A stretch of DNA of 64,000 nt from NCBI RefSeq assembly GCF_947489355.1, contig NZ_CANLDD010000001.1:186001-250000 (forward strand). The letters are read 5' to 3'. A program made the translations under genes and the position numbers. The notes under the pieces are model-generated. The model saw nothing but the letters and a program-made list of their open reading frames with translations. It searched no databases and had not been told where the DNA came from. Positions 1-17,818 of the stretch are shown here, in pieces. The DNA is from an uncultured Microbulbifer sp. (lineage in GTDB: Bacteria > Pseudomonadota > Gammaproteobacteria > Pseudomonadales > Cellvibrionaceae). How positions within the stretch are numbered: the stretch's first letter is position 1; every line of letters starts with the position of its first letter.

Positions 1-282
1 CTGCACAATGGCGCAGGAGGGAATCGGGCGCAAATAGTGTGGATAGAGGGTTTCCAGCATAGCATCTGTCAGTTCCGGAAAGTCGTCACTGAGTTTTTGC
101 TGAACCCTCGCATTCATGTAGGCAAAGCCCGATAGCAGACGCCCCACCAAGGGATCATCTACAGTCTCCGTATCCAGTTGTAACCTGGAGGCCGCTGCGG
201 GGTGCATGCGGGCAAATTCAGCGGCTGTCTGCTGGATAAAGGCCAACTCGCGCTCGTAGAGATCGATTAAACGTTCACTCAT
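1..282 (-). CDS. tssF: T6SS baseplate protein TssF (N-terminal part, runs off window)
   Basis: The first 94 codons of a gene that leaves the window at base 1. The ATG at 282 overlaps the TAA stop of tssE by one base (TAATG), so it is translationally coupled to it. The translation begins MSERLIDLYERELAFIQQ and continues with a segment rich in FA.MHP, DP.V.RL..GFAYMNARV and LYPHYLRPIPS. This is the characteristic N-terminus of TssF/VasA/ImpG. TssF is a known baseplate wedge component, together with TssE, TssG and TssK, on which the sheath assembles. TssG and ClpV would be expected further left. Identity is secure from both sequence and position; only the 3' end is unseen. Confidence 0.93.
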   Translation of the reverse strand, partial: MSERLIDLYERELAFIQQTAAEFARMHPAAASRLQLDTETVDDPLVGRLLSGFAYMNARVQQKLSDDFPELTDAMLETLYPHYLRPIPSCAIVQ

Positions 283-755
283 TATATAATCTCGGACACG
301 TCGACCATTTGGGTCACGGGATTCAGGGCGGAATCAAAAACAATGACCTCCGAGGCCGGGTTGACATATAGCACCGCTTCGACACGAAACCGTATACTCG
401 GGTCTTCCATATCTATCTTTTCCTGTGTCGTCACCTTGACAGAGCGAATCCTCGGCTCAAAGTGCACAATGGTTTTCTCAATATCACGACAGAACAGTTT
501 TCTGCTACCCAGAGAAGATAGATTAATCGTGGATAAATCCGGCAGGCCGTAATTAATATTGGAGCCCTGCAGGTGCGTCAGGCTATCTGCTGCAGAAATA
601 CAGCGGTAGCGCGTATTAAATAAATACTCGAGATCCCGCCGCACGCCTTCACGCAACTGCCGCAATATTTGGTGTGACTGGTGCATATCCAGTTTGCTCG
701 AGGATTCCAGCAGTCGATCCAAAATCGGTGCCAGCAGACGCTTTTCTTTTGCCAT
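282..755 (-). CDS. tssE: T6SS baseplate protein TssE (gp25-like)
   Basis: A 157-residue protein of the gp25/TssE family, which forms the baseplate wedge and links it to the contractile sheath. It starts MAKEKRLLAPILDRLLES, a typical TssE opening, and contains REGVRRDLEYLFNTR (the conserved V..DLE.LLNTR core) and the later NYGLPDLSTI segment. The frame is open upstream to 779, inside tssC2. I chose the ATG at 755 because it lies five bases after the tssC2 stop with a GGGAG about 12 bases ahead, whereas the 779 start has no ribosome site. It is coupled to tssF at its 3' end. Function is by family; the sheath partner could be TssC1, TssC2 or both. Confidence 0.92.
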   Translation of the reverse strand: MAKEKRLLAPILDRLLESSSKLDMHQSHQILRQLREGVRRDLEYLFNTRYRCISAADSLTHLQGSNINYGLPDLSTINLSSLGSRKLFCRDIEKTIVHFEPRIRSVKVTTQEKIDMEDPSIRFRVEAVLYVNPASEVIVFDSALNPVTQMVDVSEII

Positions 756-759
756 CGAA

Positions 760-2274
760 CTAGGCAGCTCCCACCCCAATCGTTGCCAGCGCTGTGGTCA
801 GTTTCAACTCTGATACAAGATGATCGACGGTATAGTGGCTCTTCAAGTGAATCACGCTTTGATAGCTACCGGCTTTACCCGGTTCATCGGCCACCCTGAC
901 CCGGGCTTCACGCAGCGGGTAGCGCGCGAGCATTTCCCAGGAAAGGTCGTCCCGCCCAGTTGTATAGCGATCCAGCCAATGCTGCAATTGGCGCTCGCAA
1001 TCCGCCGCATTCATATAAGCGCCCACTTTGTCCCGGATCATTACCTTGATGTAATGGGCAAAACGCGATGCACAGAGTATCTGCTGCAACATTGAACTGA
1101 TCCTGGCATTTGCAGTGGCGGCCTTGGAAGTATACTGCTTGGCTTTTTGCAGCGAGGGAACACTGTTAAAGGCACAATAGGGCGTATCGTAACAATGGCT
1201 CAGACAAACAAAACCCAACTCAGAGAGATCCCGTTCGACAAAATCGGTAACCAGAATGGAGGTGGACATACGCACCGTGCCCGGGCGACTGTCGGGCTTG
1301 TAAGGCACAACCGGTAACTGGGTCATCAGTCCACCGCCCAAGTGGTCTCGGGCAACGCCACGAATATGGGAAAACCAGCCGACCTCACTGAATTCCCGCA
1401 GCAATACCGCACCCAGGGCAAAGCAGGCATTGCCCCACAAGTAGTGCCGGCTATGCAATGCCGCAACCTGCTCTTCAAACCGCAAGCCACGGTATAGTGA
1501 AAAATCAACACTATAGGGTTTCCGCATCAACACCTGTGGCAGAGTCACTGCGATAAAACGGCTGTCTTCCAACTCGCGAAGACTGTTCCAGCGGATATAT
1601 TCACCCTGACGAAAAACTTCAGAAAACCGGATGGGCTTTGCCAGGTCATCAAAGTGATCCACACCGAACAGTTGCGGGCTGGCCGCACAGACAAAAGGGG
1701 CAAATGCGGCGGCCGCTGTATGCGCTATTCCTTGGAGGGTAAAGACATCATCGTACGGATGTTCCGGCAAAGGGCGGTGGGAAATATAGTAATCCCCCAG
1801 TAAAAGGCCAAAAGGTTCTCCGCCCGGAGTACCGAATTCCTCATTATATACAAGGTGGAAAAGACCGGACTGATCAAAATCCGAGGCCCGCTCCACATCC
1901 TTGCTGAGATCCCTCCAGTTCACATCCAGCAACTTTATCTTGATATTGTCCGAATGGGGCGTATTGAAAACCAACATGGATAGGCCGCGCCAACTGGCCT
2001 CCAGTCGCTGAAAGCGGCGATGGTGTATTATCCGGTTAACCTGGTTACAAATCAGCTCGTCCAGCTCCACGATCATACGATTGAGATACTGGCGAACAGA
2101 AAAGCTTTTTTCTTTAGGGCAGGGACAGATCTCGCTCAACCAATATTCAAAAGCAAACAGGGTATCCGGTTCCTGTAAAAAATTCCGAAGTTCAGTCTGT
2201 TCCCCCCTGGCCAATTTTTCCGATAGTATTTCTATGTGATCTTCCGCTATCGGGCGGGCTGTCGTACGAGACAC
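760..2274 (-). CDS. tssC2: second T6SS sheath large-subunit paralog (TssC2, EvpB/VC_A0108 family)
   Basis: About 504 residues, full TssC length, following tssC1. Conserved TssC features are present: FQRLEASWRGL, EEFGTPGGEPFG with the following LLLGDYY, YLWGNACFALG, and near the C-terminus RFAHYIKVMIRDKVGAYM. The protein diverges strongly from TssC1 in the N-terminal helices and surface segments. I chose the GTG at 2274, which has GGGAG six bases upstream; a TTG at 2289 lacks a ribosome site. Tandem TssC paralogs are known in Agrobacterium (TssC40/TssC41) and Rhizobium imp loci. A heterotypic sheath with TssB is the natural inference. An 88-103 bp gap with a stem-loop separates it from tssC1, unlike the overlaps elsewhere in this operon. 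Confidence 0.9.
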   Translation of the reverse strand: MSRTTARPIAEDHIEILSEKLARGEQTELRNFLQEPDTLFAFEYWLSEICPCPKEKSFSVRQYLNRMIVELDELICNQVNRIIHHRRFQRLEASWRGLSMLVFNTPHSDNIKIKLLDVNWRDLSKDVERASDFDQSGLFHLVYNEEFGTPGGEPFGLLLGDYYISHRPLPEHPYDDVFTLQGIAHTAAAAFAPFVCAASPQLFGVDHFDDLAKPIRFSEVFRQGEYIRWNSLRELEDSRFIAVTLPQVLMRKPYSVDFSLYRGLRFEEQVAALHSRHYLWGNACFALGAVLLREFSEVGWFSHIRGVARDHLGGGLMTQLPVVPYKPDSRPGTVRMSTSILVTDFVERDLSELGFVCLSHCYDTPYCAFNSVPSLQKAKQYTSKAATANARISSMLQQILCASRFAHYIKVMIRDKVGAYMNAADCERQLQHWLDRYTTGRDDLSWEMLARYPLREARVRVADEPGKAGSYQSVIHLKSHYTVDHLVSELKLTTALATIGVGAA

Positions 2275-2348
2275 CGGACACTCCCACAAGTAGTATTTTT
2301 GAGAGACTCGATAGAATCCCGGCCCAGGACAAGACCTTTTGATAACAT

Positions 2349-2377: not shown

Positions 2378-3865
2378 TTATCCGGCAGAAGGGATATTCG
2401 CCACCATGCGCATGGACGTAGTCAACTCTTCCATCTGCAACCAGGGCTTCAGGTAAGCCACGGCACTATAGCAACCCGGTTGTCCCGGAATTTCCTTGAC
2501 CTCTACCCGGGCTTCGGAAAGCGGGTACTTCGCCTTCATTTCCGGGCTCGCATCCGGGTTGGAGTTGGTGTATTGGATAATCCACTTATTCAACCAGCGT
2601 TCGCAGTCACTGGCTTCCATAAATGAACCCACTTTATCCCGCGCCATGACCTTCAGGTAGTGGGCGATACGGGAAGTGGCCATCAGGTAGGGAAGTCGCG
2701 CGGAGATGGCTGCGTTCGATGTTGCATCCGGATCATCATAGGTGTTGGGTTTTTGCGCACTCTGGGAGCCAAAGAAGACAGAGTAGTCGGTATTTTTGTA
2801 GTGACACAGGGGCAGAAAGCCTTGTGCACTCAACTCCGCTTCACGGCGATCAGTGATACCGATTTCGGTGGGGCACTTTTGATCCAGATCGCCATCATCG
2901 CTCTTGAACACATGAGAAGGCAACCCTTCGACCTTACCACCACCCTCGGCACCGCGGATTGCTGTACACCAAGAGTTTTCAGCAAACGCCTTGGTCATGG
3001 TGGTACCCATAACGTAAGAAGCATTCATCCAGCAGTACTGATTGTGCTCTGCCGAGCGAGAAACACCGGACTCGTCTACTTCAAACTCCTCGAAGTTAAA
3101 CGCTTCGATCGGTTTGGTATTGGCTCCGTATGGAGTGCGGGCCAGTGTACGCGGCATTACCAAAGTGACAAATCGGGAGTCGTCACTGTCGCGGAAACTG
3201 CGCCACTTGATATATTCGGCGGATTCGAATATACCACCGAGATCTCGTGGCTTGGACAGTTCGGTATAATCATCAAAGCCAAACATGCCCGCGCCTGCAG
3301 CCGCGATAAATGGGCAAAAGCCCGCTGCGGCAACGTTAGACATTTTGCTCAAAAGCTCGATATCTTCCGGGTGGCTGGTAAACTCAAAATCGCCGATCAT
3401 GCAGCCATAGGGCTCTCCCCCTGCAGTGCCAAACTCTTCTTCGTAAATTTTCTTGAAAGTCTGACTCTGGTCAAATTCAACAGCCTTGTCCAGATCGCGG
3501 AACAATTCGCGCTTACTCAGGTTGAGCATGCGTATTTTCATGGTCGCGCCGGTCTCGCTGTTCATAACAAGGTGGTTGAGCCCTCTCCATGAACCCTCCA
3601 ATTTTTGGAATTTGGAATCGCGCAGAATCGCGGACAGTTGTCTGGACATTGCGGTATCCAGTGCACTGACCGCTTTCTTAATCGTTTGGGTCAGGTTGCG
3701 GTCCCAGGTCACGGTGCCTTTTAACACCTGCTCGGTGAGGTTCGCAATCAGATCCTGGGCCTCCTGCGGCTCTGTTTGCTTGGTTGCCGCGATCGCCTGC
3801 TCCAGCAGGCCAGCCGATTGCTCCTCGGCCTCGCTTTCCGCAATATTTTCTACTTCTGTACTCAT
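2378..3865 (-). CDS. tssC: T6SS contractile sheath large subunit TssC1
   Basis: A canonical 495-residue TssC/VipB protein. It polymerises with TssB into the tubular sheath whose contraction drives the Hcp tube and spike out of the cell. Landmarks in order: an acidic N-terminal region with [23 protein letters not shown] (about residues 88-102); [23 protein letters not shown]; the [13 protein letters not shown]-like segment; the conserved C-terminal [19 protein letters not shown] and the terminal strands that exchange with TssB. The ATG overlaps the tssB stop by four bases (ATGA), giving coupled and roughly equal synthesis of the two sheath subunits. This is the least diverged of the three TssC-family proteins here and is the probable main sheath subunit. 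Confidence 0.96.
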
Positions 3866-4383
3866 TCTGAGTCCTCTCCCTTATCCCCGTTTAAGCCTAG
3901 TTGCTCGGAAATAGCACCGACGTTTTCCGTGCTCTTCAGGATATCCTCCAACACCTTTTCAAGTTCTTCTGAACGATCGGCCTTGCTGAGGAGATCACGC
4001 AATTTGCTGCGCGCTTCGAGAAGCTGCTTCAGTGGTTCAACCTGCTCAACGATTTGCTCAGGAGAAAAGTCATCCATGTGTTTGAAGTCGAGATCAACAG
4101 CCATCTTGCTGCCATCTCCGGATAGCGTGTTTTCCACCTGCAGATTCAACTTCGGATTCACTTTGGTCATTACATCATTGAAGTTATCGCGATCTATTTG
4201 CACAAATTTGCGATCTTTCAATACCCTGCGATTTTCAGCGTTATCCCCCGAATAATCGCCCATGACGCCCGCCACAAAAGGAAGTTCCTTTTTGACTTCA
4301 GCGCCATTGGTCTCTACATCGTAGGTAATATGCACACGGGGTTTGCGCACACGCTTGAGTTTATTGTGGATGCTCTCGGACAT
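3862..4383 (-). CDS. tssB: T6SS contractile sheath small subunit TssB
   Basis: A 173-residue TssB/VipA/ImpB protein, normal family length. It has the conserved [22 protein letters not shown]-terminal strands, [10 protein letters not shown], the [15 protein letters not shown] segment and [22 protein letters not shown], the helical region that contacts TssC and ClpV. The ATG at 4383 is preceded by GGAGA at eight bases. It overlaps tssC1 by four bases and follows tssA by 42 bases, so tssA-tssB-tssC1 is one unit. Function in the cytoplasmic sheath is established for the family. Confidence 0.97.
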
Positions 4384-4425: not shown

Positions 4426-5709
4426 CTACCAGCCTGTGCTGGTTTCTTCTTGCGGTTGCCCCCAACCATCATCGGAAGCGGACACCGGCCCAGAGGCCGC
4501 TGGCACCGGTTCGGGGGCTGCTGGTGCTGAGGAACGACTGTTACTGGTTAGCGGTGGCGCCACGTAGCGCTGACTATCGGTTCCGTCGAGACGCACACCG
4601 GTTAACTGGGAGTAAAGCACACGTGCCTGCTCATCTGGGAGCAGCTCCGCCATCAATTCAGAAACCGTCATACGTCCCCAGCCAATCAATCTTTCCAGGC
4701 TCGGCGCCAAAGGTGTGTGCGGCTCATAGGTACGGAAGTACTTCGCGGCCTGCTCCAGCAACCCAAGTGCGTCCTCTCGCGAGGACACAGGCCCTGCGGG
4801 CACTGAGAGTCTGTTGTCAGCCACCCCAGTCTCGACGGGCATATCAGACCCAGTTTCACTGGATGGAGCATCATTCTGCGCGACCGCTTCGGACTGTGCG
4901 ATGGATTGCAGCTGGATTTTGTAAATAAAGCGTGCAGTGCGCAATACCTCATCCAACAGAGAGGAAATATTTGTTGACGGTGGTGCCTCGTGCCCACACC
5001 GCGCTCGCAGTGCATTGTTCATATTGCCGAAATGGCTCAGGGCGGTTTCTATTGTTTCAATAAGGTTCTGGGCCCAGTCGTCACTCGCACTGTTCACACA
5101 CAGGTTGACCGCTTCCAGGCTGTAGCCCAGGGTCTCAATGCGTGCCGTTTTCGCATCCTCATCCGCAATTCTGTCTGCATCCCGCGCCTGCTGGTACTGA
5201 AAGAATGAGAATTCACTGCAATCGCCTTCCGGTGTAATAGCGGCGCTGCGAATTGGCATCATCAATGTGCCATCACCACCGTCGCCATTGAGACCGGTCA
5301 GTGGTGCCACTTTGGTTTCAATACCGTCTTCGTCCGGCAGCGGGTACAGACCATCCCAAAAATCTTCAAGCAACCGGTCAATCAGCTGAAAGCCATCGCG
5401 CAGCCCGCTAAATCCGTGCAAACGGATCAGGGCTTCGGTGTACCAACTGGCAACTTCCAGGTCTTTGCTTTTCTCGATGAGGATTTTTTCTGCGAACCTG
5501 GCCACATCGCGCCAGGGCGCCAGCAGATCAGCGTCCGTATCATCGAACATGGCCGAGCGCTCAGCGGCTCTGGCACTATTGCGGGCATCCTTGATGGCAT
5601 AATAATCTGAGGTTGGTGAACGATCTTCTCGAATATCCTCACCGACAGGCTTATCTGAAGAAACCGGAGCAACAAGTGCCTCTATATTTACTGTATTTGG
5701 GAATGCCAT
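4426..5709 (-). CDS. tssA: T6SS cap/assembly protein TssA
   Basis: A 427-residue TssA (ImpA-type) protein. The ImpA N-terminal domain occupies roughly residues 10-190 (PVGEDIRED, the Y.A.KDARN.AR helix, WYTEALIRLHGFSGLRDGF, LLEDFWDGLYPLPDEDG). The C-terminal part has LLEQAAKYFRTYEPHTPLAPSLERLIGWGRM followed by ELMAELL, which is the TssA1-type C-terminal signature. The tail is Ser/Ala/Pro-rich and ends in a Trp-containing segment. In other systems TssA initiates and caps sheath polymerisation. The ATG has AAGGGG seven bases upstream. It is the first gene of tssA-B-C1-C2-E-F and lies downstream of a 526-bp gap that probably carries its promoter. Confidence 0.93.
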   Translation of the reverse strand: MAFPNTVNIEALVAPVSSDKPVGEDIREDRSPTSDYYAIKDARNSARAAERSAMFDDTDADLLAPWRDVARFAEKILIEKSKDLEVASWYTEALIRLHGFSGLRDGFQLIDRLLEDFWDGLYPLPDEDGIETKVAPLTGLNGDGGDGTLMMPIRSAAITPEGDCSEFSFFQYQQARDADRIADEDAKTARIETLGYSLEAVNLCVNSASDDWAQNLIETIETALSHFGNMNNALRARCGHEAPPSTNISSLLDEVLRTARFIYKIQLQSIAQSEAVAQNDAPSSETGSDMPVETGVADNRLSVPAGPVSSREDALGLLEQAAKYFRTYEPHTPLAPSLERLIGWGRMTVSELMAELLPDEQARVLYSQLTGVRLDGTDSQRYVAPPLTSNSRSSAPAAPEPVPAASGPVSASDDGWGQPQEETSTGW

Positions 5710-6235: not shown

Positions 6236-6928
6236 TTATTGCTTTGCCGGCAGTCGGCCCCCGGCTCCCAACATGGCGCAATAGGATTCCGGAGTGGGCA
6301 GCGACGGGCACAGCAGGCTGGTGGGCTCCAAGTGTTGAGATCCCTCACACCACCAAAGGCTATAGCAGGAAAAATGCCGGCGGCAGAGTTGCCCGAGCAA
6401 GCCCCCATAGCTACTCTCAACACCACCCACATCGCCGCTGGCAATATAGACATCGGACTGCATACCCGGCCCACTGGCCACACCGATACCTTCCGGGGCA
6501 GAGACAAACGCCGCAAACAACTGGTCGGCGTGCAAGCGGTTTTGCAGGGCACTGATCGCCAGCTCGGAGAGACTCTGATACCACTGTTTGGCGGCCGACA
6601 TAAACGCAAAAGCATCCACTGTTGGCGGCAGCGCCGTGGCAATGGTTAAGGGAAAGTAGCGACCTACACTGTCCACGCTGGGTACCAGGATGCCCGCCCA
6701 GGGACTTTCATCGATCACCCCTTTGCCGTGCGCGAAGTGCCAGATTGGACTCGTCAGGTAATAATCCAGCCACTGCTCCCCCATGATTTCACAGGAACCG
6801 CGTACAGCGCTTTGTAACCATTCATCCCACACCTTGACAAAACTGCCGGGCAACTGGCGCTGGATAAAGTCGCCGTGTCCAGGCAGTTTGCCAAAGAGTC
6901 CGATACCGCTCACAGGGCCTCCGGACAT
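6236..6928 (-). CDS. tagF: T6SS accessory/repressor protein TagF
   Basis: A 230-residue TagF/ImpM family protein. The start GIGLFGKLPGHGDFIQRQLP is the diagnostic N-terminus (GK.P..GDF), followed by WDEWLQ, SPIWHFA, GILVPSVDSVGRYFPLTI and WWCEGSQ. In Pseudomonas and Agrobacterium TagF represses T6SS assembly post-translationally and works alongside the PpkA/PppA/Fha pathway. In Agrobacterium TagF is fused to PppA, while here PppA is a separate gene at 17819. It overlaps the end of tssM by 19 bases, so the two are coupled. It is the last gene of the tagH-to-tagF group. Confidence 0.93.
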   Translation of the reverse strand: MSGGPVSGIGLFGKLPGHGDFIQRQLPGSFVKVWDEWLQSAVRGSCEIMGEQWLDYYLTSPIWHFAHGKGVIDESPWAGILVPSVDSVGRYFPLTIATALPPTVDAFAFMSAAKQWYQSLSELAISALQNRLHADQLFAAFVSAPEGIGVASGPGMQSDVYIASGDVGGVESSYGGLLGQLCRRHFSCYSLWWCEGSQHLEPTSLLCPSLPTPESYCAMLGAGGRLPAKQ

Positions 6929-9900
6929 CGATAACCGCGCAGCAGGTTGCGATCAAACGGGTTGTTGACATTGGAGGCAATCAGCCTGAACTGCGCCTTA
7001 CGACCGTCTTCAGAAAAAGTTACCAGGCGTTCCGCTTTGCTGCGCCCAACCACCAGATCGGAACTGGCCAACAGGCGGTACCACGCCCAATCCCCCTCAA
7101 AGTGTTTTCGATGCACAGTTTCATTCAGGTCTTCAAAAATAATCCTGACCCTGTTGCTTTCCCCGCCGCGCCAGGTGAGCTTCTTACTGGTCTTGGGTCC
7201 GTGGGAGTAGGGAACGCGCTGATCCCCCAGCTCCAGTTCAAACAGGCGCACACTGGAATCCAGCTTGGTGGGCTCGATGCGGAATGCATAGGATGCGGTT
7301 TCACCCCCGGCAAAAAGCGTCCTGCGGATGCGCTCCGCCCGCCGCAGTTGCGACAACGCCTCCCGGGACAGGCCCATACCCTGACCCTCGACAGACTTAA
7401 TCCGCCAGTTTCTGGTATCGACAAACGGCTTCAAATACTCGTTCACAAACGTCTGCTCAATGCCGCCTGGCTTAAAGAACTGGTTAAACTCCATCACCGG
7501 CACTTCCCGGTCGCGATCACCACTCAGTGGGTAGCGTCCGGCCAAGCTGTTGGCATAACTGAGATAGACCCGTTCATTCCACACTTGGTTGAGATGAGCC
7601 TTGGCCTTCGCCATCACCAGTCCCCAGGTGCTGTTGGCGATATCGGTCAGCCACTGGTCGAATGGCGCCGGGGCACTGGCGGCCTTAATTCTGAGCTGCT
7701 TGATGGCATCGCCACCTCCACCAAAGCGCGCCTTGGCCCGTGCAAATGCGGCCTCATCAGCATCGGGTGCGCTGTCAATCTCGGTCAGATATTCCTGAAT
7801 TTGATGAATGGCCAGCAGGTATTCCTGAACCCTGGCCGTCCGCCCCTTCTCACTCTGGGTAATGCGCTGAACTTCCTCAAAGTGCAAATCGACGATATTG
7901 GGTTTGTACTGATCCCGCAAAGCACCCGCCGCACTGTCAAGTGCGGCCCCACCTACCTTGCGGGTGGTACTGGAGACCGGTAGAGCGACCCCGGAGGCGT
8001 CTACGGACAACTCCGGGCGCGGTGTCAGGCGCGTGTTGTCCGAGGTAATTTCCGCAACCGCAAGCAGCGGCGAATAAATCGGGTCGGACAGATTTGACAG
8101 CACTTCCAGTGCCTGGGAAGTACTCTCGAATTGCCGAATGTTGAATCCGCCCAGAAATGCCTGCCAGCGCTGCAGGTATTCCCCCAGATAGATACGCTTT
8201 ACCTCCTCGCCGAGCTTTTCCCGGTCGGCCTCAGTAAAGTCCTCCCCACTGAGATCACCACCGTAAATCCAACGCTCTTTCGCCATATTGGTCATCAGCG
8301 GGGAATCCGCATCGAATTCCAGCTCCTTGTACCCCGCTTTGGTGTAGAGGAAAGGAATACGAAACCGGGAATCGTTTGCATTCATCCCGAAGAGCTGCTG
8401 GGTATCGCCGCCAATTTCCTGGTAAAGATCCACCGAGACCTGCCCCAGGTCAGTATTTTGCAACTGGGCAAACAACCGTTGGGGTACGGGTATGCGTCGC
8501 AGCTGTTGGCGTGCGCGGGCTACGACCCGTGTGTTTTGCTCCACGCTGGTGGGAACAGGCTGCGCCAGCAATTGATCCAGATGGTAGCGCAGATGCTCCT
8601 GTTCCCGGGCCTTCCCCGGCAACAGGTGCTCCCAGCGCGCCGCGTAATAGCTCTCTATGGTGCCAATATCCATCCTGTCGGCATTAAAGAACATCAAGTA
8701 AGTCCTGAGGGTATTCCCCAGCGCTGGGTCATCGCTGCCAAGGCGGCTCAGGTCGCTCTCAATATCCCGCAACAACGCCGGCAAAAAAACACCTTCGAGT
8801 TTGCCCCGGTAGAGATTGTCCACCCCCTTTTCAATCCGCTTGTCATAGAGCCCCAGGTTGCCAATCCAGGGGTGTTCATCTCGATCGTACACCGCGCCGG
8901 CCTGCCGCAATGGCTCCAGCATGTTGAGTGTCTTTACCGATGACGGCCTTGTATCCTTCAGTGCACCTTCTGCCTGCTGGTAAGCGGCAAGGTGATCGCT
9001 CACTTCCCCCATGGACAGTTTGTTCTGGGCGAGACTGCCGCTCCAGAGAAATACGGCTCCGACAAAAACCGTTGCCAAAGAAGCATAGACGCCCCTGCGC
9101 AGCCATTGGGTGGCCGTTTCGATCTTGCGGTTGACGCCGACCAGTTCCGCCTCGGGAAACACAACGTCTTTCAGCAACCGGTGCAAAAAGAAGCTTTTTC
9201 CAACCCCCTGGTGTCTGGGCCCGACATTGCGCTCCAGGCCAAAGTCCGCTGTTACCGAGGCCATCATACGGTCAACCGGGCTGCCTTCCTGGGTGCCGCT
9301 GGTAAAGTATACCCCCCGCACCATAGGCACAGTCTCATAGCGGTTGGACCCGAAAGCCTGTTTAACAAATTCGGTGAGCACGCCGGACAGGTTCTCTATC
9401 CGCGCGGGAAAGCCTTGAAGCAATGCACGCTTCTCAATATTGCGCTCCTGGTGTACCCGCCACAGGACGCGCTGGTTGAGCCGCTCAATCAACCGATCAA
9501 ACTCCGACTTGAAATTATCCAGTGGGGCACCGGCAGCGGCATCGACCTCACGCGGGAAACTGAGGCCCCACACCTGCTCGCGTTCAGCCTGGGAGAGGTT
9601 GTCAAAAAATTCACTGAACCCTGCGACCAGGTCACACTTGGTAAAGGTGAGATAAATGGGAAAGCGGATTCCCAGTTCCCGCTGCAGCTCATTCACCCGC
9701 TGGCGGATGGTTTTCGCCTGGTGCTGCCGCTGCTCTTCAGTTTGCACCATCAGGTCCTGCAGGCTAATTGCGACCAGGGCGCCATTGATCGGGCGGCGGC
9801 GGCGGTAGCGCTTCAGCAACCCCAGGAACGCCTTCCAGGCAGTGTTGTCATACACCCGGTGGCTGTCCTGGCTGGTGTAGCGGCCCGCTGTATCGATCAA

Positions 9901-10449
9901 TACCGCATCATTGGTAAACCACCAGTCACAGTTGCGCGTACCACCGACACCGCCGAGGGCTCCCTTGCCGTGGCTCTGGGCGAGGGGAAATTCCAACCCG
10001 GAATTGACCAGTGCCGTGGTCTTGCCACAACCGGGAGGGCCGAGAATGACATACCAGGGCAGTTGATAAAGGGATACCTTGCCCTTTCCCGACTTGAAGC
10101 GGGCATTGCGCAAGACATCCATAGCCTCGCGAAAGCGCCCGGAAAGCGCATCGAGTTCCTCGCGGGAATGGGCTTCATCGGGATCCTGTGCCGCTTCCTG
10201 GGATGCCTCTATGCCCTGAATCAGCGCCTGGTTCTGGCGCCGCTCCACCAGCCACTGACTCAGGTTCCAGACCAACCAGAGTACAAAAATAAAAACGATG
10301 ATAATGATGCGGATAGTGGGGGGGAGCGTGGCATTGTCACTACCAAATTTGATGTAGTTCGCCCCAAACCAAATCAGCAAGGACAGGGCCAAAAGGCCTA
10401 TCAGCCCGACCACCCATTTGTTGGTAAAAAAGTCGCGCAAGCGTTTCAT
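6910..10449 (-). CDS. tssM: T6SS inner-membrane complex protein TssM (IcmF family)
   Basis: A 1179-residue TssM. Two N-terminal membrane segments lie at about residues 12-30 and 46-66. A cytoplasmic NTPase-like domain carries a Walker A motif GPPGCGKTT (137-145) and the later VLIDTAGRYTSQ. A third membrane segment near residue 460-480 leads into the long periplasmic part that contacts TssJ. TssM, TssL and TssJ form the trans-envelope channel. The Walker A motif is intact; not all TssM proteins keep it. The frame is open to a GTG at 10482, but I chose the ATG at 10449 (MKRLRDFFTN) because GGAG lies six bases ahead and family members start this way. It is 54 bases downstream of tssL. Confidence 0.95.
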   Translation of the reverse strand: MKRLRDFFTNKWVVGLIGLLALSLLIWFGANYIKFGSDNATLPPTIRIIIIVFIFVLWLVWNLSQWLVERRQNQALIQGIEASQEAAQDPDEAHSREELDALSGRFREAMDVLRNARFKSGKGKVSLYQLPWYVILGPPGCGKTTALVNSGLEFPLAQSHGKGALGGVGGTRNCDWWFTNDAVLIDTAGRYTSQDSHRVYDNTAWKAFLGLLKRYRRRRPINGALVAISLQDLMVQTEEQRQHQAKTIRQRVNELQRELGIRFPIYLTFTKCDLVAGFSEFFDNLSQAEREQVWGLSFPREVDAAAGAPLDNFKSEFDRLIERLNQRVLWRVHQERNIEKRALLQGFPARIENLSGVLTEFVKQAFGSNRYETVPMVRGVYFTSGTQEGSPVDRMMASVTADFGLERNVGPRHQGVGKSFFLHRLLKDVVFPEAELVGVNRKIETATQWLRRGVYASLATVFVGAVFLWSGSLAQNKLSMGEVSDHLAAYQQAEGALKDTRPSSVKTLNMLEPLRQAGAVYDRDEHPWIGNLGLYDKRIEKGVDNLYRGKLEGVFLPALLRDIESDLSRLGSDDPALGNTLRTYLMFFNADRMDIGTIESYYAARWEHLLPGKAREQEHLRYHLDQLLAQPVPTSVEQNTRVVARARQQLRRIPVPQRLFAQLQNTDLGQVSVDLYQEIGGDTQQLFGMNANDSRFRIPFLYTKAGYKELEFDADSPLMTNMAKERWIYGGDLSGEDFTEADREKLGEEVKRIYLGEYLQRWQAFLGGFNIRQFESTSQALEVLSNLSDPIYSPLLAVAEITSDNTRLTPRPELSVDASGVALPVSSTTRKVGGAALDSAAGALRDQYKPNIVDLHFEEVQRITQSEKGRTARVQEYLLAIHQIQEYLTEIDSAPDADEAAFARAKARFGGGGDAIKQLRIKAASAPAPFDQWLTDIANSTWGLVMAKAKAHLNQVWNERVYLSYANSLAGRYPLSGDRDREVPVMEFNQFFKPGGIEQTFVNEYLKPFVDTRNWRIKSVEGQGMGLSREALSQLRRAERIRRTLFAGGETASYAFRIEPTKLDSSVRLFELELGDQRVPYSHGPKTSKKLTWRGGESNRVRIIFEDLNETVHRKHFEGDWAWYRLLASSDLVVGRSKAERLVTFSEDGRKAQFRLIASNVNNPFDRNLLRGYRCPEAL

Positions 10450-10503
10450 GAAAAACTCCATCTCCCGGGGCCCTGCCGGCACCGGCTCTGTACGGTCCGA
10501 GTG

Positions 10504-11367
10504 TTACCCTTCCCCTGGCGGGAGCGCTCTCTCACTGTCTGTGAGATCCGCCACGCGATCCACAACCGGTGTTGTCGTTTCGTACAACCACCAGCGATAA
10601 CCACTGTAAGTGGCAACCAAGAGACCGACGGCGACACTCATGATGACCCACAGCGGTACAAAGTGGATCAGGCGTGACTTGCGCTCGACACAGCCCTGCC
10701 AGCGCGGTGACAGGTCGCGCTCCATGGCCGGCCTGTGCTGTTCAATGGTGCGGTAAAGCTCGTCCCTGATCTGTTCAATCTGTTCGTGCCCGCGCTGCAC
10801 CAGGCGATACTTGCCCTGAAAGCCCAGGCTCAGGCACAGATAGAAAAGCTCCAGTAACTCCAGGTGAGAGGCCGGGGTTTCGAGCATGCGCTGCAAAATG
10901 GCGAAGCACTTCTCACCGCCAAAAGTCTCTTTGTGGAACAAGCTCAGCAGCGAGTGCTGGCTCCAGCCGCTGGCCGTTCCCCAGGGGGTGGTCAACACCA
11001 TTTCATCCACCACAGTACAGAGTAAGTAACGCGCAGTGAGAACGCTCTCCGGAGTTAGCGCCAGTTGCTTGGCCTCGCGTTCAAATGCCTGAATTTCCCG
11101 GGTCAGGCGTTTGTGCAGGTCCGGTACATTGGCGTGGTTCATGGTAGTGCGCAGTTTGATAATCACTCCCAGCAGCTTGGAGGCCGCAGACACCAGGGGG
11201 TTCAGGCTGTTGCGCACCTGTCTGTCTGCAGCGCTACCCGGATCGGCAAACAACTGTTGCGGGATCGGGTCCGGCTGCACCGGGGCAGCGGCACCCGGAG
11301 TTGGTATCATCACTGTCCTGTCGCCGCCATCGGGTGCCGGCGGGGGCGTGAAGCTTTCTTTGCTCAT
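10504..11367 (-). CDS. tssL: T6SS inner-membrane complex protein TssL (DotU family), no PG-binding domain
   Basis: A 287-residue TssL. The first ~55 residues are Pro-rich and disordered-looking (PPPAPDGGD, TPGAAAPVQP). The DotU domain follows, with NPLVSAASKLL, ARYLLCTVVDEMVLTTPWG and SLLSLFHKETFGGEKCF. A single membrane segment (LWVIMSVAVGLLVATYSGY) precedes a short periplasmic tail. There is no OmpA-like peptidoglycan-binding extension, so anchoring must come from elsewhere. The ATG at 11367 lies one base after the tssK stop with AGGA nine bases upstream; the frame runs further into tssK but without a ribosome site. Confidence 0.95.
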   Translation of the reverse strand: MSKESFTPPPAPDGGDRTVMIPTPGAAAPVQPDPIPQQLFADPGSAADRQVRNSLNPLVSAASKLLGVIIKLRTTMNHANVPDLHKRLTREIQAFEREAKQLALTPESVLTARYLLCTVVDEMVLTTPWGTASGWSQHSLLSLFHKETFGGEKCFAILQRMLETPASHLELLELFYLCLSLGFQGKYRLVQRGHEQIEQIRDELYRTIEQHRPAMERDLSPRWQGCVERKSRLIHFVPLWVIMSVAVGLLVATYSGYRWWLYETTTPVVDRVADLTDSERALPPGEG

Positions 11368-11368
11368 G

Positions 11369-12706
11369 TCAATGATTCCTGATGGCCCAAAGCTCCATGG
11401 ACAGCCCCGGAAATTCCGCGCCGAGATGTACGGCAAAACCGCCGGATCTCAACATGGCCTGCCACATTTCGCCGCTGCGCTCCATTTCGAAGTAGGTGAA
11501 TCCGGCGTGATAGGGAATTTGGCGGGGCGCCACCGGGAGTGGGCGCAGGGACAGTCCCGGCAGCTGTGCTGAGATCAACTCGCGAATGGCCTCCACTGGG
11601 GCCACCTTGGCCTGGGTGGGGAAGCGGCTGCGCAACAGGTCACCCGGCATATCCGCTTTCGCAGCCATGACAAAGCTGGCCGATTTGAGCATCGAGGGAT
11701 CGGTCACCGGTGCCACATAGATGCCAAACTTCCTCTGCACCAGTTCCATGGGAATAGCGGTCTGTTCCAGGACAGTGGACAGGGATTGGCGCAGGGCGGA
11801 AAACAGCCCGGCAAAACTCAGTTGCAGATTTTCATGGGCATAACCGGGAATCTCCGCTGGGCGTTTGTTTGACGAGGTGAACGTCGACAACTCTCCAGCC
11901 AGTTGCAGCAATTCCAAAAACAGACTGTGGGGGTGCAGGCGCGGCTGTGCGGTAATCTGTTTCAGCATGGGCTCAAAACGATTGATAACCTGCAGCAACA
12001 GGTAGTCGGCAATCTCCGCCGATCCACTTCTGCCGCTGTCACACAAACGGTGCCCCAGCGCGGTACCGCGATGATCCAGCAGCCCCTTGACCTCTTCGAT
12101 ATAGGCTTTGATCACCGGCGAAGTCTCGGCATTCAGCAGTGGTGGAATATAATCTGTATCCAACTCCAGCGGTTTTTCCGGCTGGCACTCACGTATCCGG
12201 GCAATACCGATCGCGGCGTAACCGCTCAGGTCATCGCTCTCCAACTTTAGGCAGACACGTAGCTTGCCCACCTGGATACGGGCGGATTCACCGGAAGCAG
12301 TAGCGCTGTTGCGCACATCAAAATTGGCCGCCTGGTAGCGGGCCTGGGGAAAGTCCTCCTGATCCCTGATGGACTCCTGGCTGCCGGGGCGCTTCAGAGG
12401 TATACATAAATAGGCGACTTCATCGCGGGTATGCACAGGCACATCCAGCACATCCGGCAGGTGCTCATTTTCCGGCGCCAGGATTGGCGTGCCGTCTGGG
12501 AAAATCGCCCGCAGGCGGGATACGGAGACCTTGCCCATGGAAAGCGGTTCGCTGTCAATCGCCAGCTCAACCACACCCCAGGTGTAGGGGCCCAGGGAAG
12601 CGGTGCGCGCTTCGACCAGCTGTTCGAGATAGCGATCCTGCTGCTGGAAGTGCTGGGGGCGTAAAAACATACCCTCACTCCAGATCACCTTGTTGTTTGC
12701 CGACAT
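11369..12706 (-). CDS. tssK: T6SS baseplate-membrane adaptor TssK
   Basis: A 445-residue TssK (VasE/ImpJ), which connects the TssEFG baseplate to the TssJLM membrane complex. The hallmark N-terminus KVIWSEGMFLRPQHFQQQDRY is present, followed by the tail-fibre-like shoulder domain and a C-terminal domain with RIRECQPEKPLELD, FAGLFSALRQ, KADMPGDLLRSRFPTQAKVAP and FTYFEMERSGEMW. The ATG at 12706 has AAGGAAG five bases ahead. An in-frame extension to 12733 has no such site. It sits between tssJ and tssL in the usual order. Confidence 0.96.
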   Translation of the reverse strand: MSANNKVIWSEGMFLRPQHFQQQDRYLEQLVEARTASLGPYTWGVVELAIDSEPLSMGKVSVSRLRAIFPDGTPILAPENEHLPDVLDVPVHTRDEVAYLCIPLKRPGSQESIRDQEDFPQARYQAANFDVRNSATASGESARIQVGKLRVCLKLESDDLSGYAAIGIARIRECQPEKPLELDTDYIPPLLNAETSPVIKAYIEEVKGLLDHRGTALGHRLCDSGRSGSAEIADYLLLQVINRFEPMLKQITAQPRLHPHSLFLELLQLAGELSTFTSSNKRPAEIPGYAHENLQLSFAGLFSALRQSLSTVLEQTAIPMELVQRKFGIYVAPVTDPSMLKSASFVMAAKADMPGDLLRSRFPTQAKVAPVEAIRELISAQLPGLSLRPLPVAPRQIPYHAGFTYFEMERSGEMWQAMLRSGGFAVHLGAEFPGLSMELWAIRNH

Positions 12707-12780
12707 AAGTCTTCCTTGTAACGCCCGAGCCAAATGGACCAGTGCTGGAAATAAAACCTGCCCGTGCTTTGCGCAGCGCG

Positions 12781-13398
12781 CTATTTAGAATTTTCCATTT
12801 CCCGGAGGCGCTTTTTCATCGACTCATAGTCCTCACTGGAAATGGTTATCGTTTTGTCCTGGGCCTCACTAGCGCGCCTTCGCGACAGGGCGGATGCTTT
12901 GTCGCGACGACGTTTGGCAATCTCGTCGGGGGTGCCGATGCGAGTATCGGCCAGGGATATCTGGTACGCATTTTTTTTGTGATCAATGATCGGCAGCACC
13001 ATCAGGGCATCGGCTCTCTGATACTGCACAAACTCGGCCAGAAGGCCGATATATTTCACCTCCGGGTCCAGTGCCAATGCTTCCACGCGCTGTTCACCGG
13101 GAGCGAACTCCTTCAGGATCACGGTATCCAGCAGGTCCTTGCCCAGACGGGATTCAGCATTTTCGTACAGATTCAGGAATTCCTCCCGTGCAAACTGACG
13201 ATCGTCCGCCAACATAAAAATGCGCACTACAACGGGGGACGCGCGCCCATCGCCATCGGGATTGACGTCCTCTCGGACATCCATCGACAGCTCGATACTG
13301 GTGTCCAGGTTCAAGGTACGCCTGGTAGTCTGGCAGGCTGCCAGGGAGACCAGCAAAAAGCCAAGCAGAGTGATACGGAACCAATTATTTTTCGACAC
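12781..13398 (-). CDS. tssJ: T6SS outer-membrane lipoprotein TssJ
   Basis: About 205 residues. A short charged start (VSKNNWFR), a hydrophobic stretch and the lipobox LAAC place the lipidated Cys at residue 22. The mature part has the TssJ beta-sandwich pattern (SIELSMDVREDVNPDGDGRASPVVVRIFMLADDRQF, LDTVILKEFAPGEQR). A charged C-terminal extension rich in Arg/Glu/Lys follows and is longer than in minimal TssJ proteins. I chose GTG 13398 because a perfect AAGGAG lies six bases upstream, within the last codons of tagH; the two genes overlap by 14 bases. TssJ anchors the TssLM complex to the outer membrane. Confidence 0.92.
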   Translation of the reverse strand: MSKNNWFRITLLGFLLVSLAACQTTRRTLNLDTSIELSMDVREDVNPDGDGRASPVVVRIFMLADDRQFAREEFLNLYENAESRLGKDLLDTVILKEFAPGEQRVEALALDPEVKYIGLLAEFVQYQRADALMVLPIIDHKKNAYQISLADTRIGTPDEIAKRRRDKASALSRRRASEAQDKTITISSEDYESMKKRLREMENSK

Positions 13399-15184
13399 GA
13401 CCAACTCCTTTTCCTCGATCAATATATTCATTTTGCAGCTGTCTGGCATTCTTTAACTCTGACAGTTGATTTTCATACGTCACAGCAAATTCATCACCGA
13501 ACAGCTTGCGGTAACAAGCCTCGGGGTCGCCAACCAGTTCGCGGTACAGTGCGTCAAAGCCCTGCCACTTTTTCGCATTTTTATTGCCGAAGACCCCGGA
13601 AATATCACCCAGGCGCCGCTCGATATTTTCAGGGTTGAAGTAGCTGAGCATTGCACTGTAGCCCGCGCGCATGCCGGCGAGCACCGCCACCTGGTGATCG
13701 GAAAGATCTTCAAAACTGTCCCGCACTGCCTCTTTTGGCTGCATAAATGCACTGTTGCCCGCAAACATGGCCTCCAGGGCATCTCGCTCGGTTGCGCTGA
13801 ATTTCAGTGGGTTATTGGCCTCTGTCTGAATCATGGTGCGCTGCACACGCAGCTCATTTTTAATACTGGTGCGCGCGCGCAAGAGGTCTATCAGACGTAC
13901 GACGGTTTCGCGAACGATCTCGGCCGCCTGCTGATCCGCCTGCTGCTGTTGCACAGGGCTCATATTCAGACCCAACGTTGTCGCCAGAACACTGGCCGCT
14001 GATGACTCTGCGGGCGGTGCCTGTAGCGGGTGTGCTGGGGGTTCAACCTGACTCGATTGGCCCGCCATAGGCGGTTGGGTCTGCGATTGCAACGGGGAAG
14101 AGGGGTACCCCGAAGCGACAGAATCCGCAGGGCGGGACGGGGGCGCCTGCCCCATACCGAATCCCGGCGCGCCCGCCATCGGTTGGCCCTGTACAGCGGC
14201 GAAAGAATCCGCAAACGGATTATCCTGAGGTGACTGCGCAGGGTGCGGCGTCAACTGGGGGGGAGGCTCCTGCGCTCGCGCAGGTGCCATCGGTGGCGAC
14301 GATGGCGAAAATCCCCGCGGGGCCTGTGGCTGCGGGGGCGGTGGCTGTGACGACACGGGGGATCTTTGATACTGACTGGGTGGCGCTACCTGCGGCTGGG
14401 CCGCTGTCTGCGCTTCCACGGGCGGCTCCGGGGCGATATGCACTGCGTGCTGATCCGCCGGCACATGGTCCTGCTCGCTGCCATCCTTCCACCACTCCTC
14501 ATCGGACCACTGGCCCGAACCGGCCTGGCTGACCGACCCATCCAACGCCCCCAAACCCGGGGCATCCGACGTAGCAAACGCCTGTGGCTGGTCAAAAGCG
14601 GCGAGGGGATCCAGCGGGCCGGCATCGGCGCCCAACAGACTGTCACCGGACGGTGTTTGCTGGGCCCCTGGGCCGATATAGCCCCACTCCCCGGACTGGG
14701 AGATATCGGCGCCACTACCGGGTTCCAGCCAGTTGTCCAGTTCCCCGGCATCGGTCTGGCTCTGTATCTTCGCTCTGGTGCTGGAACTAAAGGTGGTGCG
14801 GTCTGAGGTGTCGAGAAAATCGGCACTGCCAAGGCCCTTGGGCAGATGGCTTTCCACCTGCGGCTGGCGCAGAGCCACCTTGAGGCGGTATTCCCCCATA
14901 TGGATGATATCCCCCTCTTTCAGGGGCATCTGGTTACCCTTGCCGATCATTTCCTCGGCACCATTGTAAAAGGTACCGTTGGTACTGGTATCCGTCAGGA
15001 AATATTGATTCCCACTAAAGGAAATCTGTGCGTGTCTGGAAGAGACAACGCGGTCGGGATCGGGCAGCACCCAGTCGTTGTCTGCCGAGCGGCCCAAGCT
15101 CCCACCCGCTTTTGTAAACAGCTTGGTGTGTTTGAGCATATTGGCCCCTGGGGGGTCTGCCAATACAGAGAAAATGAGGTCCAT
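13385..15184 (-). CDS. tagH: FHA-domain protein TagH/Fha, T6SS threonine-phosphorylation scaffold
   Basis: About 599 residues in three parts. An N-terminal FHA domain (residues 1-105) has the phosphothreonine-binding motifs GRS (31-33), SSRH (48-51) and TNGT (68-71). A long Pro/Gln/Ser/Ala-rich linker follows (about 190-395). The C-terminal ImpI/TagH domain includes SPVQQQQADQQAAEIVRETVVRLIDLLRAR and FNPENIERRLGD. In Pseudomonas, Fha1 binds after PpkA phosphorylation and is reset by PppA; a pppA gene lies 2.6 kb away, but ppkA is not in the window. I prefer ATG 15184 with AGGA four bases ahead; ATG 15199 lacks a ribosome site. The linker is unusually long and compositionally biased. Confidence 0.93.
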   Translation of the reverse strand: MDLIFSVLADPPGANMLKHTKLFTKAGGSLGRSADNDWVLPDPDRVVSSRHAQISFSGNQYFLTDTSTNGTFYNGAEEMIGKGNQMPLKEGDIIHMGEYRLKVALRQPQVESHLPKGLGSADFLDTSDRTTFSSSTRAKIQSQTDAGELDNWLEPGSGADISQSGEWGYIGPGAQQTPSGDSLLGADAGPLDPLAAFDQPQAFATSDAPGLGALDGSVSQAGSGQWSDEEWWKDGSEQDHVPADQHAVHIAPEPPVEAQTAAQPQVAPPSQYQRSPVSSQPPPPQPQAPRGFSPSSPPMAPARAQEPPPQLTPHPAQSPQDNPFADSFAAVQGQPMAGAPGFGMGQAPPSRPADSVASGYPSSPLQSQTQPPMAGQSSQVEPPAHPLQAPPAESSAASVLATTLGLNMSPVQQQQADQQAAEIVRETVVRLIDLLRARTSIKNELRVQRTMIQTEANNPLKFSATERDALEAMFAGNSAFMQPKEAVRDSFEDLSDHQVAVLAGMRAGYSAMLSYFNPENIERRLGDISGVFGNKNAKKWQGFDALYRELVGDPEACYRKLFGDEFAVTYENQLSELKNARQLQNEYIDRGKGVGRVEK

Positions 15185-15348
15185 GTCTTCCTGACTCATA
15201 CTATTGATTTACTTCATTTGCCCGCAAAGCGTTCTGACCAGCGTACGGCATCGCCAAACACGGGGCAGCTTTGCCGGTCATATCACCAAAACCGGGCCTT
15301 GCGCCTTGCAAAACCCGCCGGTCCTCCAGATCCATCGCACAGACAGTT

Positions 15349-16782
15349 TCAGTCCCAGGGACCCTTCAGGGCCCCGCCGGCGAGGGAGCGCAACCTGGGA
15401 AGAATAATCTGGTCCCGCCCCTGCACAGAACGAAGGGTACTGAGCCCCGCCTGCATAAACTGCGTGGCACCGCTATCGGTCAGCAGTGCTTCGGCACAGG
15501 GAGTCACCCACTGTCCCTGGGGCAGTTTGCGCAGGTGCAACGGCAGGTCCTCATAACTGGCGGATACCGGTACCTGCAATTTTCCGTTCGCGGAAACTGC
15601 CTGGCAAATCGCCAGTGCGAGCAGGTAGGCACTGTTGCCCCACAGATAATACTGGTGCCCCTGCTCTGCTGTCAGTTCTTCAAAGTCGAACTGCTCGGTG
15701 GTGGCCGCCCCACTGCCAAACGGGAGGCGCAGCATAAACCTGGGTGCGGCCAAGGCGACGTATTCGCTCGCTGAATATTCCCGTACGGCCTGCCAGCTCT
15801 CGGCAAAGCGCTCACTCATGGGGTAATACCAATCGTCGGGATCGACAGAACCAGCTAGATTGGGGCAGCCGGCCAGCTTCGTATCACCGCCCAGCAGCAG
15901 GGCGCTGCCCGCCGCCTCCGCAATGGTGGAGAGATCAATCAGCAAATGCAGATCGCGCTCCTCATCGGTGATATAGAAGTCACCGAGGACCAGATTGTAG
16001 GGCCGGTTGCCCGAAACCGTTTCACGCTCCACCAGCAGTTTAAAGATCTGGGATTGCTCCAGATTACTTTCCGCACCGGCAAAATCTGAAAGCAACTCCT
16101 CTTTACTGACATCGATCAAATAGAATTGCAGTTTCCTGTGCTCATCGCAACGCCGCAACAAAAACTGCAGGCTGTACCAGCTCGCTTCCAACTGGCGGAA
16201 GTCACTGTGGTGCATGATCTTACGCATCGCATCGGAGGTCGCCTCGGCAAGAGCGTTCAAATATTCGCCCTGGTGGGGATGGGTATTCTTCTGCACATAA
16301 GGGGCGACAATATCCCGGATCAACCGCTCAACCTGAAACGTACTGCTGCACTCTTTGGCCCGGTGCTTGCGGTCCGCAGCGAGCATTGTATCGAGGATGG
16401 ACCGGTCGGCAGAAGTCGCGGTTTGGGGGGGAGCCTCGCGTAGCTCCGGCTTCCACTGCCGGATGTCCTCGGCGGCCTGCCGGAACTGCTGCGGATCCCG
16501 CAGCCGGCGTTCTAGTTCAATGAATTTTTTAAACAGCGGCAGGCGAGTGAAAAGGTAATCCGGGTGTAAATCGTCAAAACAGGACAGCGGCAGAGGCCCT
16601 TCTGTCACCGGCAGCTGCAGGCGCACCCCAAGGTCGGCAAAAACCCCTTCGAAAGTATCCCGATTTAGCAGATAGACCCTGCGCTGAGCGATACTGCCCG
16701 GCTCACACTGGCGGCGGCTGGCGCGCCCGCTGAAGTCTCCAAGGATCGCAACCTTCAGGATATCAGGGCCTGTCGCTATCAT
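15349..16782 (-). CDS. TssB-TssC fused sheath-like protein (uncharacterised T6SS sheath paralog)
   Basis: A 477-residue protein of mixed sheath character. Residues 1-115 follow the TssB pattern: KVAILGDFSG corresponds to GV.DYSG, RRVYLLNRDTFEGVFADLGVRL to [15 protein letters not shown], and CFDDLHPDYLFTRLPLFKK to [16 protein letters not shown]. Residues 150-400 follow TssC: HSDFRQLEASWYSLQFLL, FYLIDVSKEELLSDF, LVLGDFYITDE, QFDFEELTAEQGHQYYLWGN. The canonical GGEPYG loop is replaced (VSGNRPYN), and the ~120-residue C-terminal TssC part with [14 protein letters not shown] is absent. It heads the tagH-J-K-L-M-tagF group, 164 bases before tagH. It may be a baseplate-proximal or regulatory sheath element; function unknown. 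Assignment to the sheath family is firm, the role is not. Confidence 0.85.
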   Translation of the reverse strand: MIATGPDILKVAILGDFSGRASRRQCEPGSIAQRRVYLLNRDTFEGVFADLGVRLQLPVTEGPLPLSCFDDLHPDYLFTRLPLFKKFIELERRLRDPQQFRQAAEDIRQWKPELREAPPQTATSADRSILDTMLAADRKHRAKECSSTFQVERLIRDIVAPYVQKNTHPHQGEYLNALAEATSDAMRKIMHHSDFRQLEASWYSLQFLLRRCDEHRKLQFYLIDVSKEELLSDFAGAESNLEQSQIFKLLVERETVSGNRPYNLVLGDFYITDEERDLHLLIDLSTIAEAAGSALLLGGDTKLAGCPNLAGSVDPDDWYYPMSERFAESWQAVREYSASEYVALAAPRFMLRLPFGSGAATTEQFDFEELTAEQGHQYYLWGNSAYLLALAICQAVSANGKLQVPVSASYEDLPLHLRKLPQGQWVTPCAEALLTDSGATQFMQAGLSTLRSVQGRDQIILPRLRSLAGGALKGPWD

Positions 16783-16840
16783 TGCTTTTTACCATCGCCT
16801 GAAATAGGAAAGTCTGTTCGGGTAATTTTTCTCACGCTCT

Positions 16841-17628: not shown

Positions 17629-17818
17629 TTTGCCAACGTGTCCTTCATTTAACAGGCGCGGTGCCTTTAATAATGATAAATAGGGGTTTTATTATCGCAA
17701 ACTCTGAGAAAAAAATTCAAACTTGAGCTGCGGGCAAGTTAACATTACCGACGGTTATGGGTTGTATCATGTTACGCTGCATTTTATTGCGTTTTAATAG
17801 AGGGGAATTGCACCAGAC

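Follow-up and report, generated by a model that had tools for sequence, protein, structure and literature searches.

Why should a type VI secretion system (T6SS) locus with a complete set of sheath genes also encode a protein in which TssB-like and TssC-like parts are joined? The window analyzed here, a stretch of 64,000 nucleotides from an uncultured Microbulbifer sp., holds such a gene at the head of an operon whose order, fusion-tagH-tssJ-tssK-tssL-tssM-tagF, had been predicted correctly (Table 1). The clpV gene lies 2.7 kb beyond the window on the same contig. In the whole genome, VipB-type genes number three, whereas canonical TssB is encoded once. The fusion had been called a third sheath gene; it is indeed the third TssC-like gene but, since tssB, tssC1 and tssC2 are also present, the fourth sheath-like gene overall. 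It is a dedicated sheath-protomer paralogue, made of a truncated TssB followed by a TssC that lacks the C-terminal handshake domain, standing beside a complete sheath set.

Table 1. Features of the fusion gene and of the surrounding T6SS locus (positions in the window).
Feature	Position	Strand	Remarks
Fused TssB'-TssC' gene	15349..16782	minus, 16782→15349	ATG start, 477 aa
VRKITRTDFPISGDGKKQ*	16779..16835	minus	like short N-terminal extension of Microbulbifer relatives; other frame here
TssB-like half, residues 9-113	16444..16758	minus	Pfam and AlphaFold2; relatives' profiles
Linker, residues 120-152	16327..16425	minus	AlphaFold2 pLDDT <50
SILDTML, residues 128-134	16381..16401	minus	TssC-type N-terminal helix motif (cf. 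LLDEIM of VipB)
TssC-like half, residues 170-461	15400..16275	minus	VipB almost to its end, without VipB_2 after
tagH (FHA)	13385..15199	minus	
tssJ	12781..13449	minus	
tssK	11369..12733	minus	
tssL	10504..11436	minus	
tssM	6910..10482	minus	
tagF	6236..6928	minus	
tssA	4426..5709	minus	
tssB	3862..4383	minus	canonical
tssC1	2378..3865	minus	canonical, N-terminal GLLEQAI
tssC2	760..2289	minus	tandem second TssC with C-terminal domain
tssE	282..779	minus	

Pfam recognizes VipB (the TssC N-terminal domain) at residues 176-461 of the window protein (E 8.8e-49) and places VipA (TssB, PF05591) at residues 9-98 with 20.9 bits, under the cut-off of 24. Both NCBIfam scores fall below their cut-offs, at 22.6 bits against 97.25 for TIGR03358 (TssB) and 165.7 against a curated 271.5 for TIGR03355 (TssC). 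Among diverse relatives scanned, VipA (E 4.7e-6 or better) and VipB each passed the Pfam cut-off in 10/10, and a profile-profile comparison (hhalign) of the N-terminal halves of 28 relatives with 16 canonical TssB proteins gave 99.3% probability (E 4.7e-20, 111 columns); the window fusion alone matched a PDB TssB chain weakly (E 0.51). By these profile comparisons the TssB half is real, the evidence being weaker for the window protein taken alone. An AlphaFold2 model of the window fusion, built on 81 sequences (pLDDT 87.2, pTM 0.84), places both halves in a single confident fold, and all nine PDB chains that Foldseek returned at E<=0.001 were T6SS TssC-type, the next match standing at E 0.16. 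The VipB match, the relatives' VipA and this one model bear out the original prediction of one protein fusing TssB-like and truncated TssC-like domains. Its assignment of residues 1-115 to TssB agrees with the match of residues 9-113 by the relatives' profile and with their VipA hits; the TssC likeness it placed at residues 150-400 holds, but extends to about residue 461, and the GGEPYG loop that it described as replaced is altered rather than wholly lost, G258 and P261-Y262 remaining.

No match to VipB_2, the TssC C-terminal handshake domain, was found by Pfam at E<=0.01 in the window fusion or in 10/10 diverse relatives, and in the sequence alignment the fusion stops where canonical TssC continues, that is, where VipB_2 would start; the C-terminal TssC part had rightly been called missing. 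Among the best 80 of 238 relatives, 65 have at most 11 amino acids beyond the matched core (one of these, L070, ends at a contig edge) and 15 carry a tail of 80-161 amino acids. Since the protein ends early and its relatives mostly have no tail, the fusion corresponds to a protomer's middle and outer portions, the TssC handshake domain being absent. The middle domain of the Pseudomonas aeruginosa sheath is described as TssB b2-b3 together with TssC b1-b4 and b8, and its handshake sheet as TssC b11 and b12 with b13 of a neighboring TssC and b1 of a neighboring TssB (PMC5807055). Because that sheet needs TssC b11-b13 and TssB b1, we infer that the missing domain rules out ordinary lattice membership for the fusion, as had been expected from the absent C-terminus.

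For the N-terminus, our first guess was loss of the whole TssB arm across the family, which we softened in view of N-terminal extensions and of the VipA alignment and structural model of one relative, L069. In many relatives the extension is roughly as long as the TssB arm, and Pfam VipA aligns to L069 from profile position 9; the hhalign match of the relatives' TssB halves, however, begins only after the arm, and in an AlphaFold2 model of L069 the mean pLDDT is 74 for residues 1-10, of which a single one is a bridge residue, and below 50 for residues 13-22. In the window gene the extension is out of frame, which may be genuine or due to an assembly error. At locus L039 the N-terminal part of the fusion likewise lies in another frame.

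The linker between the two halves carries a further feature of TssC. VipB of Vibrio cholerae docks ClpV through 19-LLDEIM-24, and the N-termini of the P. aeruginosa TssC proteins read EFASLL (C1), ILDSII (C2) and LLDEII (C3), according to PMC4239648. An LLDEII-like motif in a free helix, as in a VipB-type ClpV ligand, is found in the window fusion as SILDTML, lying in the low-pLDDT linker in a predicted helix that itself scores below 50 (AlphaFold2). Relatives have LLDEIL, LLDQVL and similar sequences, and LSDFQxLIG characterizes a second group. Pattern matching assigns 59 of 81 sequences to the first (LLD/LLE) type, 15 to the second (DF) type and seven to neither, the helix appearing deleted in one of the seven (L083); the motif count of 74/81 compares with a mean of 1.03/81 and a maximum of 5/81 in within-linker shuffles. 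The ClpV remark in the original prediction had missed this retained TssC-type helix motif. No LLD motif was seen at the N-terminus of the window tssC2.

ClpV grooves fall into two classes, aliphatic or Arg/Asp, and PMC4239648 reports the LLDEII motif as not observed with the Arg/Asp class; the window genome's own ClpV has the aliphatic type. In the loci that could be read, the fusion type agrees with the TssC type in 22/22 (16 LLD/LLE, 6 EF; DF-type fusions pair with EF-type TssC and LLD/LLE-type with LLD/LLE-type) and with the ClpV groove class in 22/22 (13 aliphatic, 9 Arg/Asp), motifs and grooves having been read by eye in both counts. These counts include the fusions of L034 and L035, take L076 as LLE-type though the pattern expression missed it, admit L085 with Val at the second groove position, and rest for L092 and L107 on a TssC motif seen as its first letters SLLD only. 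Because the DF-type fusions, of which the tree described below contains 14, form one clade and the EF-type TssC another, the two agreements are in effect one evolutionary switch. Even so, the pattern shows the fusion retaining the helix class that its own machine uses, although simple descent from the TssC helix might account for this. Groove docking would not be common to both classes, since binding is reported as blocked in the Arg/Asp class (PMC4239648). What is new here is that the TssC N-terminal helix motif is kept in the fusion linker and is matched to both the TssC and the ClpV class.

For the VipB region we inferred a maximum-likelihood tree from 53 of the 81 fusions and 38 TssC-type rows (312 columns, X letters removed from TssC translations); 11 of the 38, those with the label _TssC2, are duplicates in which one TssC gene was read twice, and the true tandem tssC2 rows are those of the window, L059, L061, L064 and L040. 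Fusions separate from TssC at a split with support 100 and a branch length of 1.01, 53/53 sampled fusions lying on one side. The family is thus a clade apart and not an ordinary TssC with a divergent N-terminus. The window tssC2 groups with the tssC2 of L059, L061 and L064 and the second tssC of Phyllobacterium L040 (support 100); a sister relationship of the fusions to tandem tssC2 has a support of only 49. Distances among fusions and among their TssC partners correlate across 18 loci (Mantel r 0.83, 0/5000 permutations), also when the DF-type loci are removed (14 left, r 0.82, 0/5000), and fusions evolve faster, with a mean pairwise identity of 0.41 versus 0.62 for TssC. Within the genus, none of the 27/27 full-length matches, own copy included, has an internal stop, and dN/dS from the window to relatives is 0.041-0.148 in five of seven Microbulbifer pairs (two undefined; dS high), values that indicate purifying selection on the fusion. 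Its anatomy and ancestry are firm: by this phylogeny the fusions are one old family, wider and older than the published view of its roseobacter form would have it (see below).

The breadth of the family is apparent from a contig scan that confirmed 238 related stretches. By NCBI name the best 80 of these, which were kept and seen, divide into Pseudomonadota (38), Acidobacteriota (17), Thermodesulfobacteriota (6), Planctomycetota (6), Myxococcota (4), Nitrospirota (4), Gemmatimonadota (3), Verrucomicrobiota (1) and one remaining, many of the records being MAGs and all four Myxococcota being titled Deltaproteobacteria. A full-length fusion is present in 27/37 sampled Microbulbifer genomes, own included, and in 27/28 of those positive for TssC; nine of the ten fusion-less genomes gave no TssC match, and the tenth (G006, 80% complete) has tssA, B, C1, C2, E, F, G and H with no fusion found, so that the sequence may be missing. 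Of 21 other genomes of the order, seven have a TssC match and one (G056) a fusion. Among 199 Pseudomonadota genomes there were 43 with any match and an unbroken full-length match only in the own genome, while 18 of 119 Acidobacteriota had a match, unbroken and full-length in five including the chosen centre G274 (4/17 without it). A second TssC match accompanies the fusion in 22/23 fusion genomes searched whole, the exception being G257. In 58 plasmid records a single place spans 80% of the query, but we rejected counting them all as fusions, since some are separate, adjacent tssB and tssC genes; of eight that were read, six hold a fusion, H24 has separate adjacent tssB and tssC, and H33 was left out. 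G058 and G116 were likewise rejected as family members on reading, being complete TssB-TssC chains.

Neighboring genes were called by tblastn with Microbulbifer, Phaeobacter and Eleftheria queries, a search that misses divergent genes and in which many contigs were short. A constant linkage to tagH, as raised in the original prediction, is not what we found: tagH was recognized in the flanks of 28 of the best 80 loci (19 Microbulbifer, 9 alphaproteobacteria), a lower bound since the flanks are often short. The nearest recognized downstream gene is tagH in 19/19 Microbulbifer loci and vgrG in 9/9 alphaproteobacterial loci. The nearest recognized upstream gene is clpV (tssH), within 1.5 kb, in 14 of the best 80; in Microbulbifer the fusion does not adjoin clpV. 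No baseplate gene is a constant neighbor among the best 80 loci. The proposed link to tandem tssC also fails as a family rule: two further TssC genes accompany the fusion in 27/27 fusion-bearing Microbulbifer genomes and in L059, L061 and L064, and stand as adjacent matches in 3/23 other fusion genomes (those of L065, L077 and L095), not in the rest.

Three other genes lie on the far side of the fusion in the window. A gene resembling REP-associated tyrosine transposases (16909-17628, minus) lies 126 bp upstream of the fusion and is present in 19/19 fetched Microbulbifer loci, at 78-90% identity versus 56-82% for the fusion. The usual metal motif of such transposases is PNHVH; all 20 rows have PNM[VIA]Q at that place, and by its sequence the gene looks domesticated. 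An orthologue (74%) also occurs in G002, a genome without a TssC match. A PP2C phosphatase gene of the Stp1/IreP type (17819-18682, plus), divergent from the operon, is likewise present in 19/19 fetched Microbulbifer loci, and beside the T6SS lies an RHS-repeat protein (DUF6531; 18705-21806, plus), effector-like by family only. PADLOC gave no match.

Some relatives are more elaborate. An alphaproteobacterial open frame can start with a complete TssB, followed by an acidic stretch and then the fusion (open frames were read with loci L018 and L023 left out). The stop-to-stop frame of L037 is 1386 codons long, and that of L038, which reaches the edge of the fetched stretch, has at least 1567; a complete N-terminal TssB is also present in L113, L115, L118, L119 and L120, and this two-VipA architecture was seen only in alphaproteobacteria, Hyphomicrobiales (L113, L119) included. 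At L034 (17697-21722, plus) the annotated CDS starts at 19815 and the open frame with its full TssB at 17697; the annotation may be cut short. A motif of the acidic stretch occurs 5-9 times in four of five ORFs against shuffle means of 0.6-1.5, and once against 0.2 in the fifth, an enrichment that is suggestive only. The sampled tailed fusions form one clade in the tree. A C-terminal end resembling DPELAALLADL was found in 13 of the 15 tailed relatives by pattern and in a fourteenth (L099) by eye; these are L093, L094, L099, L105, L106, L108, L111-L115 and L118-L120, spanning alphaproteobacteria, Planctomycetota, Verrucomicrobiota and one gammaproteobacterium.

In the literature outside subscription papers and preprints we found natural TssB-TssC fusions of such kind only in PMC9515649; the phrase "fused TssB" occurs in PMC5614524 and PMC10781749. 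PMC9515649 describes roseobacter TssCL, a protein of 1,684 amino acids with two VipA domains and one VipB domain, which it reports from alphaproteobacteria only, calls roseobacter-restricted and suggests to be a recent event. TssCL has a degenerate VipA followed by VipB in one protein, with normal tssB and tssC alongside (PMC9515649), an arrangement that the window fusion shares, its VipA scoring below the cut-off, and roseobacter members such as Ruegeria L118 fall inside the fusion clade (support 100). The differences are an extra full N-terminal TssB, where the window fusion begins at ATG 16782 with TssB' only, and, in the TssCL-type members seen, a long stretch and a tail that are both acidic, the tail being absent from the Microbulbifer form and from 65 of the best 80 relatives. 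As judged from the tree and phyla, the degenerate VipA-VipB core is the wide, old part, which widens the published "recent, roseobacter-only" view. With TssC/VipB (PF05943 plus VipB_2, TIGR03355) the fusion shares the VipB fold, core residues and N-terminal helix motif, but lacks the C-terminal handshake domain and has TssB' fused ahead; with TssB/VipA (PF05591, TIGR03358) the resemblance covers the N-terminal half as far as the TssB C-terminal helices, but the fusion's arm region is absent or unproven and the chain is fused. Agrobacterium TssC40 is likewise a second TssC homologue, described as non-redundant with the first (PMC3702570); the window gene likened to it by description, tssC2, keeps the C-terminal domain and is separate from the fusion. 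Unlike the fusion, the single-chain TssB-TssC proteins L129 (727-3072, plus, 781 aa) and L130 (381-2453, minus, 690 aa) keep both termini. Their genomes gave no other TssC match, and these chains are possibly a one-gene T6SS sheath.

What, then, might the fusion do? We tentatively prefer to regard it as a lattice-incompetent protomer mimic that engages ClpV, a putative adaptor, decoy or pre-loaded substrate; its domain content, predicted one-piece fold, linker motif, type agreements, co-inheritance, purifying selection, the second TssC and, in some loci, the nearby upstream clpV point this way. Against it speak the single switch behind the type agreements, the reported block of groove binding in the Arg/Asp class, the seven linkers that miss the motif pattern, the low pLDDT of the predicted helix and, in Microbulbifer, a clpV that does not adjoin the fusion. 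The fusion would fold as a soluble mimic of a protomer and would neither pass nor accept handshake strands through a TssC C-terminal domain, and for that reason we infer, on sound grounds, that it does not serve as a bulk subunit of the sheath. Less certainly, its linker helix would engage the ClpV ATPase as VipB does in V. cholerae, and ClpV action on the sheath might thereby be regulated in place or time, possibly at a sheath end. The main rival, which is possible but doubtful, makes the fusion a terminal sheath unit that docks on the first or last disc, perhaps through an N-terminal donor strand like TssB b1, and, offering no acceptor sheet, serves as a sheath cap or as a link to the baseplate. 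The missing handshake domain suits this role, as do the arm-length extensions in many relatives and the L069 alignment; the hhalign match starting past the arm, the mixed model confidence at the L069 N-terminus, the out-of-frame extension in the window and the want of a constantly adjacent baseplate gene all speak against it.

A protomer-like protein without a handshake domain, encoded beside full sheath genes, could also act as a titrating regulator, binding up free TssB or TssC or competing during sheath assembly, with no specific ClpV role. This is unlikely: TssB' and TssC' probably fill each other's partner surface, to judge from the pTM of the model, and the conserved linker motif would be left unexplained. 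That the fusion is a minor structural subunit inside the lattice seems improbable; it appears to keep the TssB and TssC parts of domain 2 and some of domain 3, but the single chains L129 and L130 retain both termini and the fusion family is without the C-terminal one. It is hardly credible that the gene is decaying or that it encodes an ordinary TssC whose N-terminus has diverged. The displaced extension of the window copy would fit decay, which is contradicted by stop-free copies and low dN/dS, and we rejected chance likeness or an ordinary TssC on the separate clade, with its full support, and the TssB homology.

Returning to the ClpV-engaging protomer mimic, a wider and rather speculative version, to which we lend little weight, would make it an ancient T6SS part of some eight phyla, in which an armless single-chain protomer is a dedicated ClpV adaptor or decoy; TssCL would be its elaborated form, whose acidic D/E-L-x-x-L-L repeats might present a multivalent ligand on a sheath-anchored TssB. 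In models of the T6SS the sheath consists solely of TssB and TssC, and a lattice-incompetent protomer would be an overlooked part of it. The fusion may also offer a natural handle on how ClpV distinguishes assembled from contracted sheath.
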